This document shows positions 17,807-25,303 of a stretch of 64,000 nt of DNA, piece by piece. The translations under genes were made by a program, and so were the position numbers. Below the pieces are notes generated by a model. It saw nothing but the letters and a program-made list of their open reading frames with translations. It made no database searches and had not been told where the DNA came from. Where the stretch lies: positions 342,804 through 406,803 of the forward strand of contig BCIH01000011.1 in assembly GCA_002897115.2 (NCBI GenBank). Reading direction: 5' to 3'. The stretch comes from Prototheca cutis (taxonomy: Eukaryota; Chlorophyta; Trebouxiophyceae; Chlorellales; Chlorellaceae). Each line of letters starts with the position of its first letter. The stretch's first letter is position 1.

Positions 17807-18371
17807 ATGCCCAATTTGTCTTCACTGCATCTCTACCGTGAAATCTTGAGGGAAGTCGCGGGCCTCTCCCCAGCCCCGCTGAGGCGCAAGATCACGCGCA
17901 ACATACGCGAGGCCTTTGCACACCACAGGTCGGCCCCCGGCCATCGCCTGGCGGAATTGCACGAGGATGGACGGGCGGTCATCACTGTGATACAGTGGTT
18001 GAAGACGATCCCNGAGGTGGGGCTGTGAAGTGGTGGGGTGGTCAGCAGAGGAGCAGAGTCTGGCACCAGGTTTCCACAGCCTCCTGGCTGTGCGCCTGCT
18101 CCAGCTCGTGCTTGGGTGGCGTTGGACCTGAAACCAAGGATCGATGGCGTGCATGGCCTCGCCGAGGTGTCCGGGATGAGGGTGTGCAGACATTGCCCAC
18201 GCCAGGGTCGCCTGCATGTGCACCGGCGCCATGCCTTCGAACCACCAGGAGCGAAGTGCAGCTGACGGGCGTCTTTGTACATATGCGCGATCCCCGTCAC
18301 CTGATTAACACATGCAGGCGGACTATAAGGAGCTGGTCAAGCATTTCCTGCCGTGCAAGGATCGACCATGA
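17807..18371 (+). CDS. LYR-motif (complex 1 LYR) protein
   Basis: Small LYR proteins bind mitochondrial acyl carrier protein and help assemble respiratory or Fe-S complexes. Exon 1 (17807-18016, 70 codons) has the motif at residues 7-9 in 'LHLYREILREV', then 'NIREAF' and 'HHRSA', the usual arrangement of this three-helix family. Exon 2 (18318-18371) follows an AG acceptor in phase 0 and gives 'ADYKELVKHFLPCKDRP' and a TGA, for 87 aa in total, a typical size. The TGA at 18369-18371 overlaps the first ATG of the ARF-GEF gene (18368-18370) as ATGA, so the two may share one mRNA. An N at 18013 falls in exon 1. Exon 2 rests on splice phase and size, not on clear homology. Confidence 0.72.
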
Positions 18372-21300
18372 CAACCCCCGCAGCGGTCATCCGCCCGAGC
18401 CTGGAGAAGCTGCTCCAGAATGCCACGGGTCGCCGCCAGGCCGCGCTCCGGATCGATGTGCAGGCGCTGCTGGACCGACTGGACGAGGTGCTGCAGGTGC
18501 AAGGTGATGAGCCCCCTGAGCTGGAGTTGCCGCACCTGACGTCGCCCGAGGAGCCGGGTACGCCCACCAGCAAGCCCACTCCCGAAGTGGATGCCGTGGA
18601 GGAAACTGCGCCAGTGGCCTCCCCTGCTGCCGAGGGAGAGAGGGAGCCTTCCGTGGCTGTAGCTGAGGGTGTTGAGGGGGCTCCTGTGGCGGAGACTGCA
18701 GATGTGCCGACAGACAAGGGGCCCCCCGAGGTGCCTGCTCCGGAGGCAACAACTCCAGCGGAACCAAACCAAGTCTCTCCGACTCCGGCAATCGTATCAT
18801 CAACCCCCATAGAGGCNCTGCCACGGCCCGCACGGGGCGAGCACCACCCGGGCGCCTTGACGAACGAGGCTGCCGGGACGCTATTGGGTGTTCTGGAGGC
18901 CGCCATCGACAGCCGTCGCGGCCTGCTGGTGGAGCCGGCCCTGGAAGCTCTGCAGAAGCTGGTCGCGCATGGTCTCGTGCGCGGCACCGTTACCGTGCTG
19001 CACCACAGAAGTAATGAGGCTGGTGCCGAGGCCAGCGGCCTGTCGGGCGGCGCGGTCACGGCCGGCTTTTCTACGGCGGCCGGCGGTGGCCCCGGTACCC
19101 AGAACCGTGTGCCGCTGCCTCCGGCGGCGGCAGTGCTGGATTTGATCGTGCGGTGCGACGACATCCCCGATGAGGGCGTGGAGCTCCGGCTGCTGTCGGC
19201 ACTGCTGACAGCGGTGACATCGGCGGCGGTGGCGGTGCATGGCGCGGCGCTGCTGCTCTGCATCCGCGCGGCATACAATGTTTATCTGTCCACGCGCAGC
19301 GAGGTGAACGCAGCGACGGCTCGGGCGACGCTGACGCAGGCTCTGAATGTTTGCTTTGCCCGCATGGAGTCGGGGGACGCGAGGGCTGTGCCCCCGCCCA
19401 TCATGGTTGCCGACGTCCTGGGCATGGCACCCACGGAAACCTCCACACTGTCGGCCTCGGTACAACAGTTTCTCACCGACGTCGTCGCATCCGTCGACCC
19501 CTTTGGCTCGGGCGCTCGGAGCCTTGCCCGGGGACTGGACGCGGTGTTTGTCCCCGGCGCCGAGCCCCGCAGCCCCACTGGCGCCGAGGCCGACGCCGCG
19601 GCCGCGGAGGCCCAGGAGGAAGAAGATGCCGCCGCTGCCCTCAGCGCCGTGGGTGGCGGTCGAGCCGATGCTGCGGCCGACCGTGATGGTATCGCCTGGC
19701 GACATGGAGGTGGTTCTGCAGGTGCTGCTGCTGCTGAACAGGCGGCGCCCGAGGATGGAACCACCAGCAGCGGAAAGGGAACACCGCGAAGCACCGCAGC
19801 CGCCGGTCCGGCCGCCAGAAGCCATGCTCACGACTTGTCGGCCGACGCGACGTCGGACGCGGTGGCCGCGGCGCTGCAGCGTTCCGCCTTTCTTGTCTTT
19901 CGTGCGCTCTGCAAACTGTCGGTCCGCAGTTCCGATGGCGTCAGCGACGCCACCAATGCCCGTGGCAAGGTATGTGGGTTTTCTCTGTGTGTGTGTGTGT
20001 GTGTGTGGTGGTGGGGGGGGGGCACATGCCCACACGCGCACACGCGCATGAACATGCACAGATTTATATTTCGCGACAGCGCCTTTCACCTCGACAACCC
20101 TCCCAAAATTTTGAATAGGTGCTGGCACTGGAGTTGTTGAAGATTGTGCTGGAGAACAGCGGACCCGTGTTTGCGAGCAGCGAGCGGTTCCTGGCAGCGA
20201 TCCGGCAGTATCTGTGCTTGAGCCTGCTGAAAAACTGCGCGAGCAGCGTGCCCGGCGCGCTCCCCCCCTGCGCCAGCATCTTCCTCACGCTCGTCCGCCG
20301 CTTCCGCTGGGCGCTCAAGGGCGAGATTGGCGTGTTCTACCCGCTCATCCTGCTGCGCCCGATTGAGCCGGCGGCGGGGGGCGTGCTGGCGCACACCACG
20401 GGGTCGGGGTCGGGGTCGGCGCCCGTCGACTTTGCGTACCGCCAGGTCGCGCTGCGCTGCCTGGCGGCGCTGGCTGTCGACGGACAGGCGCTGGTGGACT
20501 TGTACGTCAACTATGACTGTGACCTGGAGGGCGCCAACCTGTTTGAGCGCACGGTGCAAGCCCTGGTCCGCATCGCACAGGGCAGCCCGGGGCTGGAGGC
20601 CGCCACGGCCACGCCGGCCGAGGAGCACGAGCTGCGGTACGAGGCGCTGTGCTGCCTTACTGCCATCCTCCGCGCCATGAACACCTGGGTTGCCCAGGCC
20701 CAAAAGCGTGGTGCTGGGGGTGCCAAAGACGAGGGCAGCAACGATGAAGAGGACGACGAGAGTGGTGGCAGTGAGGACGAGGAAGGTGTCGCCGCCGCGA
20801 CTGATGAGGACCTCAGAGCCCCCGCCACACGTGCGACTCGTGGAAAACCGCCGCTGTCGCGGAAAAAAGTTCAAAAATCTGACCGAGGCCACGCTCATCC
20901 CTCGTCGGTCACGTCCCCCGGCCGGCGGTTGCACCGCAGCCGGACAGACGCAGAGCTTCTGGCCCAAGCCAGCGCAGCCCTGGCCCTGCGTGATTCCCGT
21001 GTTCGAGCTCGCTGGATGGCCGAAGCCCAGGCCCAGGACGCTGAGAGCAGTGGGGCTGAGGGAAGCGGTGCTGCTGAAGGTGGCGCTGCGGTCTCGGGCG
21101 GCCCGCTGTCGCCTCGGCCGGGGTCGTCCGCCTCCGCCGCCGCCGACACCCCGCAGCCACAGCAGCCTTCGGCGCTGAACTCAACGCTGGAGGGCTGGCG
21201 TGCGTTCAAGCGGGTGTACCTGGAGGGCATTGCCCTGTTCAACACCAAGCCGGCCAAGGGCGTGGCATTCATGCAGGAGCAGGGGCTGGTGGGGTCTGAC

Positions 21301-24300: not shown

Positions 24301-25303
24301 CGTCGCTCGCCGCTCCCAACGCTTTGATGGCGGCAGTAGTGCCGGTGGTGGTAGTGGCAGTAGTGCTGCGGAGCACCAGAATGGCAATGGCAGCGAGGCC
24401 CAACGCCACCGCATCAACGAAGACCACCATCGGCAGCCGCAACGACCGCGGTGGTCGTTGGGCCGCGGCGCGGGTGCGAGGCGACTCTCCGAAACCCGAA
24501 CACACGCGGCGACGTCGTTGCTGGTAGCGCAGGCGGCGGAGGAAGTCTGTCGCGCCGCGGCGACGACCCTGCCTCCTGCCGCCGCGGCCGCGTTGCTGGA
24601 CGTCGTCGAAGGCATCGCCTCGAGGGCGAGGGGTGTGGATGCGGACCTGGCGCTGCGCGCCAGCCTGGCGCTGGCCCAAGCTGCAGATGGCGTGGTGATC
24701 GATCGTGCTTTACCTGACCCGCCGCTGCTGGAACTCGAGGCAGGGGCAACGGCGTCCACGCTGGGCGCCCTGAGTGCGCTGCGCGATGCCGGTTCAACCG
24801 AGCTCGCCGAACGGTGTGCACTCGAGCCGCGCCTCGCGGCGCTCTGTCTCGACGGGCTCGCCCGGTTCTTGGCCGTCGCCGAAGAAGATGACCAGGAGAG
24901 TGATGCCGACATCGGTGGCGGTAGCAGCAACCTCGATGACGACCTCGCAGCAGTGCTGCGCGACGGACCCGGTGGCGCAGCGCTCCCGACGGCGTCCATC
25001 GCCGCGCCCATGACCGTCCAGCCGCCGCAGGCTTCTTCGAGTTTGCCGGCGCCCACGACTGCGGCGACCATCGCGCACCAAAAGGCGGTCGCAGCAAGGG
25101 CAGAGGCCGCGGCACTAGCCCCGCTGGCCACGACAACGCTGCGCGCGCTGTGCGAGTTTGACGATGCCGCGTTCCGCGCCCATGCGCGCGACCTGTTTCC
25201 CCACCTGGTCAAGCTCATCGCGGTGCAGCATGCGCCGAGGGAACTGCGTGCCGCGCTTTCCGACCTGTTCCTCCGCCGCGTGGGCAACATGCTGGCAGCG
25301 TGA
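18368..25303 (+). CDS. BIG-type ARF guanine nucleotide exchange factor (Sec7 domain)
   Basis: Large ARF-GEF that activates ARF1-class GTPases at the trans-Golgi. Exons 18368-19969, 20119-22307 and 22435-25303 join in phase to 2220 codons (2219 aa). The DCB domain fills the N-terminus ('SLEKLLQNATGRRQAALR'). The HUS box is 'YVNYDCDLEGANLFER' near residue 665. Sec7 spans about 890-1080, with 'FRLPGEAQKIDRLMEKF' carrying the catalytic Glu and 'AYSVIMLNTDAHNP' both intact. Downstream are HDS regions: 'ALLVVAEHNGNALG', 'SLTKIVEIAAYNMDRIRLVW', 'LRPF' and a C-terminal HEAT-like part. Low-complexity Gly/Ala/Ser linkers follow Sec7. The ATG at 18368 is the first in frame and is immediately followed by the DCB helix. 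The long minus-strand ORFs here (18881-20128, 24085-25638) are shadows. Confidence 0.93.

Follow-up and report, generated by a model that had tools for sequence, protein, structure and literature searches.

Can a LYR-motif protein (LYRM) and a BIG-type ARF-GEF be encoded by a single nuclear mRNA, with the coding region of the one running into that of the other? The question is raised by a locus within a 64,000-nt stretch of algal DNA (hereafter the window, to which positions refer unless another locus of the genome is named). The window sits on contig 11 of a genome of 19,886,974 bases in 23 contigs. The alga is apparently non-photosynthetic, since a genome search with one family, the chlorophyll-binding proteins (PF00504), gave zero matches. 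An Rfam scan of the window at gathering thresholds also gave zero matches. The window contains 213 N in total, and single N bases together with a longer N run are seen at 6997-9415 and from 12059 onward; these may reflect ambiguity or heterozygosity as well as a gap in the assembly. Green-algal nuclear loci that are exclusively bicistronic were reportedly described by Gallaher in 2021. The features of the LYRM/ARF-GEF locus are listed in Table 1.

Table 1 Features of the LYRM/ARF-GEF locus, in positions of the window.
Feature	Position	Strand	Basis
Probable promoter and 5' UTR upstream of LYRM (putative function)	17605-17806	+	No ATG across 17605-17806
LYRM exon 1 (residues 1-70; LYR motif HLYREILRE)	17807-18016	+	Pfam PF05347; three homologues
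Internal 7-codon ORF (MDGRSSL and stop), out of frame, context ACGAGG ATG GAC	17967-17990	+	AUG scan of spliced mRNA
Putative LYRM intron, 301 nt, GT...AG	18017-18317	+	Splice letters; homologue frames diverge after PEVG
Putative LYRM exon 2, ADYKELVKHFLPCKDRP then TGA stop	18318-18371	+	Joined frame; codon-usage frame preference (weak)
TAA in ARF-GEF frame, 42 nt upstream of its ATG	18326-18328	+	Sequence letters
ATGA, formed by the overlapping ARF-GEF start and LYRM stop	18368-18371	+	Sequence letters
BIG-type ARF-GEF; exon 1 18368-19969, exon 2 from 20119 (splice letters), stop 25301-25303	18368-25303	+	Pfam

The joined LYRM exons translate to 87 aa, corresponding to an ORF 1 of 264 nt including the stop codon. 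The peptide passes the cut-off for Complex1_LYR (PF05347; 27.9 bits, cut-off 24.8), while a search of solved structures gave no strong match, with LYRM4 the best PDB profile match (E 0.011). At E values of 1 or below, the genome has seven LYR-family matches, four of which, LYRM included, lie above the cut-off. A single N at 18013 is located within a CCN proline codon and leaves the LYRM translation unaffected. What we presume to be an ISD11 fragment at another position of the genome was also compared, and nothing useful matched. Upstream, a PWI-domain gene at 16952-17464 (-, 83.9 bits) lies head-to-head with LYRM, its open frame extending to 17464, roughly 340 nt short of the LYRM ATG; this arrangement suggests that the two genes may share a divergent promoter.

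Protein searches returned three LYRM homologues, P0001 (89% identity over 83% of LYRM), P0002 (93% over 80%) and P0004 (58% identity), as well as one ARF-GEF homologue, P0003 from Auxenochlorella. Exon 1 is common to all three LYRM homologues, and the agreement ends after PEVG, at the donor. Beyond this point the homologues match the window in neither length nor sequence; in P0001 and P0002 VGVWG is still shared before they diverge. Such a loss of similarity is as expected at an intron, and we infer the splice from it together with the GT and AG letters. Residues 90-136 of the P0004 frame may represent read-through of an in-frame intron and then DICSKLRVYLFRLL, which could be exon 2 of this homologue. 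The viral_contigs and genome_contigs collections were each scanned once with LYRM exon 1, and no DNA of a relative was found.

The LYRM reading frame closes on the same TGA from five of five AG acceptors with exon starts at 18318, 18330, 18333, 18342 and 18360. Hence, given that exon 2 is used, the overlap with the ARF-GEF does not depend on the exact site. Acceptors farther upstream within the intron lead to other LYRM ends. Codon-usage scoring, trained on 26 ORFs and an ARF-GEF seed (244,006 bases, 20 sequences), prefers the correct frames for both LYRM exons. The preference is weak for exon 2 (17 codons): its frame outscores the other five, with a score matched by 16.7% of 13,516 random stop-free stretches.

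The four-base ATGA overlap described in the original prediction proved exact: the LYRM TGA occupies 18369-18371 and the ARF-GEF ATG 18368-18370, so that four nucleotides are common to the LYRM end and the ARF-GEF start, and 18358-18380 reads AGGATCGACCATGACAACCCCCG. A longer ARF-GEF start through exon 2 is precluded by the in-frame TAA. Furthermore, the ARF-GEF and P0003 start at the same Met and both begin MT, with 25 of their first 42 residues identical in a MAFFT alignment, on which the N-terminal match rests (BLASTP with P0003 left the ARF-GEF N-terminus unreported). The common start in P0003 and the upstream TAA make the ARF-GEF start at 18368 firm as a reading of the sequence. As the second residue of P0003 is Thr, its start must also read ATGA. 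The prediction had also stated that this ATG begins the DCB domain directly. Residues 1-42 do match the Auxenochlorella N-terminus, but the Pfam DCB match starts at residue 170.

ARF-GEF exon 1 is followed by the donor GTATGT. The pieces of the gene score 59.4 bits for DCB, 245.7 for Sec7, 96.1 for HDS, 81 for BIG2_C and 29.4 for Mon2_C (cut-off 27). The DCB, Sec7, HDS and BIG C-terminal domains occur in the order of BIG-type ARF-GEFs, and HUS was detected in P0003. Sec7 and DCB each have three matches genome-wide, and on contig 1 the two occur near each other at one further place. The ARF-GEF described here is therefore probably not the sole gene of its type in the genome. On the same strand, 574 nt after the ARF-GEF stop, the sequence from 25878 onward opens with MGVKRLWDLLEP, which we take to be an XPG-like start; a Pfam XPG_I match falls within the open frame 27329-29668.

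Bicistronic loci provide the obvious comparison. The original prediction was right that dicistronic nuclear loci are reported in green algae, including Auxenochlorella, for which 43 bicistronic loci are described in a study that used Prototheca cutis for collinearity (Duenas 2025, PMC11892635; papers are cited here for their accessible text). Those loci have a median ORF 1 of 291 nt and a median ORF 2 of 1,185 nt, with a median inter-ORF distance of 40 nt, where collinear genes that are monocistronic have 2,518 nt (PMC11892635). The present locus resembles them in its short ORF 1 (264 nt versus the median of 291 nt) followed by a longer ORF 2, and in its tight same-strand tandem (a 4-nt overlap versus the median of 40 nt). 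It is also alike in kind of product, in that mitochondrial proteins are frequent in the published set and the products are often unrelated. ORF 2 spans 6.9 kb here, a genomic span and not a coding length, compared with the published median of 1,185 nt (PMC11892635). A further difference lies in the start context of ORF 1, which is not clearly weak here. Algal bicistrons often pair proteins of differing localisation and unrelated functions (PMC11291117), which accords with the earlier remark that LYRM, of mitochondrial type, and the Golgi-linked ARF-GEF have no obvious functional link.

The overlapping-bicistron architecture is itself already known, as stop and start codons overlap in some Auxenochlorella bicistrons (preprint PMC11291117). 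Supplementary lists aside, the LYRM/ARF-GEF pair is unnamed in the accessible text of PMC11892635 and PMC11291117. That text has zero mentions of ARF in either paper, of Sec7, GEF, Golgi or brefeldin in PMC11291117, and of LYR in PMC11892635. The pair may already figure in the published supplementary lists.

We looked in the same genome for four bicistrons named in papers, searching via the family of one partner and reading the neighbour by eye. Three of the four pairs sought form a tight tandem, with gaps of 146, 81 and 11 nt. TOM22-SDHAF3 is found at L012 4253-5138 with the 146-nt gap (TOM22 29.5 bits, cut-off 28.7, exons joined by eye; SDHAF3 60.4 bits). REX1S-REX1B is located at L034 (reverse complement) 1128-1214, with a gap of 81 nt and no AUG between. 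REX1S (Tfb5) scores 45.3 bits, and the first exon of REX1B alone scores 14.0 bits, below the cut-off of 24; the REX1B genome match reaches 23.7 bits, or 24 with its neighbours. An OST4-like ORF at L033 (reverse complement) 1484-1500 stops 11 nt short of the FAM32A start and scores 18.8 bits, below the Pfam cut-off of 25. FAM32A has two matches, of which L033 was chosen as having the OST4-like ORF upstream; inspection of the second, L032, by eye revealed no OST4-like ORF. CDC26-TTM3 was not found in the genome and no CDC26 was recognised. The sole CYTH match in the genome was rejected as TTM3, its frame being, by eye, what we take to be a kinase-CYTH fusion. TOM22-SDHAF3 is of particular relevance, as it too pairs an LYR-family gene with a tight neighbour. 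In that pair, however, the LYR protein occupies ORF 2 behind a 146-nt gap, whereas here it is ORF 1 with a 4-nt overlap.

We consider it likely that a single bicistronic nuclear mRNA carries both LYRM and the ARF-GEF. This reading is the best supported because the two ORFs lie on the same strand with a 4-nt overlap, ORF 1 is short, the ORF 2 start is conserved and three published bicistrons occur as tandems in the genome. One transcript with two coding regions, as originally proposed, thus holds as the favoured model, with the transcript itself predicted from the DNA. The accompanying argument that there is no room for a separate promoter went too far, as the 301-nt intron or the LYRM exons could hold an ARF-GEF start site. 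Two separate overlapping transcripts would require the ARF-GEF to be transcribed from a promoter within LYRM, in its intron or exons, and the LYRM mRNA to end inside ARF-GEF exon 1. Internal promoters are predicted behind many complex isoforms in Auxenochlorella (PMC12636532), which lends this arrangement some precedent; we nevertheless regard it as unlikely, given that an intron with seven AUGs would make a poor 5' leader. The Auxenochlorella set, with its median gap of 40 nt, was chosen as exclusively bicistronic by Iso-Seq, and it proves that such loci exist as a kind, not that every tight pair is one (PMC11892635). The poly(A) signal bears on the same point. TGTAA is present in 56.8% of 292 Prototheca wickerhamii sequences (PMC1868727). 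No TGTAA is found on the + strand from 17603 to 32247, and the motif is thus absent between LYRM and ARF-GEF and also after ARF-GEF. It is also lacking for 2.8 kb after SDHAF3, and the whole window contains 14 on the + and 15 on the - strand. Because of its absence after both ARF-GEF and SDHAF3, the test is uninformative, and the missing motif weighs only weakly against two transcripts. The species here may use another poly(A) signal.

Retention of the LYRM intron would give a protein of 73 aa with its stop at 18028 and no overlap, possibly still bicistronic with a 339-nt spacer. The LYRM open frame does extend to 18028, and all three homologues are stored as frames that continue past the donor. 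Past PEVG, however, their departure from the window, in length as in sequence, is intron-like, and the frame score of exon 2 adds a weak argument for splicing, so that retention appears quite improbable. A fusion protein, in which the LYR domain is spliced in frame onto the ARF-GEF, is conceivable in so far as AGs in the ARF-GEF frame occur from exon start 18407 on. Such a product would lose the N-terminus shared with P0003, which starts at the same Met without an LYR match, and we regard a fusion as exceedingly improbable.

Under the bicistronic model, the nuclear transcript would begin upstream of 17807, within the short divergent region, and splicing would remove the 301-nt intron from the shared transcript. 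The mature mRNA would then carry the 87-aa LYR-motif ORF 1 and the BIG-type ARF-GEF ORF 2, joined at AUGA. ORF 1 would be read by normal cap-dependent scanning, while ORF 2 would most likely be read by leaky scanning, that is, by ribosomes that start at neither the ORF 1 AUG nor the lone internal one. Some ORF 2 translation may also come from reinitiation, either at AUGA or downstream of the 7-codon ORF. In Auxenochlorella, altering the start context of ORF 1 shifted ORF 2 output as leaky scanning predicts (PMC11892635).

The AUG content of the spliced mRNA was considered in this light. The AUG at 17967 is the sole one between the two start codons, compared with 2.93 expected, a difference that is not significant (Poisson P 0.21); the LYRM intron has seven AUGs against 3.63 expected. 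The deficit before ORF 2 points in the direction expected of leaky scanning, with a number too low to count as proof. The context of the ORF 1 start, TGGACC ATG CCC, has A at -3 and no G at +4. By eye, against the published consensus, it does not look weak, nor clearly weaker than the ORF 2 context (TCGACC ATG ACA). The published leaky-scanning signature is thus not clearly seen here, given this ORF 1 context and an AUG deficit short of significance. The internal AUG, with A at -3 and G at +4, should catch scanning ribosomes, to judge from its context. Its 7-codon ORF ends 76 nt before the ARF-GEF AUG, and hence reinitiation after this ORF may contribute.

TGGGA, which we take to be a viral motif of termination-reinitiation, is absent from the spliced LYRM coding sequence. 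The locus resembles influenza B segment 7 (UAAUG), a case of termination-reinitiation, in its overlapping stop and start codons. It differs in that the spliced LYRM coding sequence lacks this motif, and algal mutants favour leaky scanning (PMC11892635). The apparently good ORF 1 start context and the strong internal AUG are the grounds for supposing that the ARF-GEF owes most of its translation to termination-reinitiation, whether at AUGA or following the 7-codon ORF, rather than to leaky scanning; we hold this to be doubtful. Were it true, it would mean translational coupling on a nuclear mRNA, with ARF-GEF output tied to LYRM output.

Automatic annotation may miss the LYRM gene. With this locus, the green-algal bicistrons gain a candidate pair whose second gene is very large, whose coding regions have no spacer between them and whose start context departs from the textbook leaky type. 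As such, the locus offers a natural test of leaky scanning versus reinitiation for second-ORF translation in algae.
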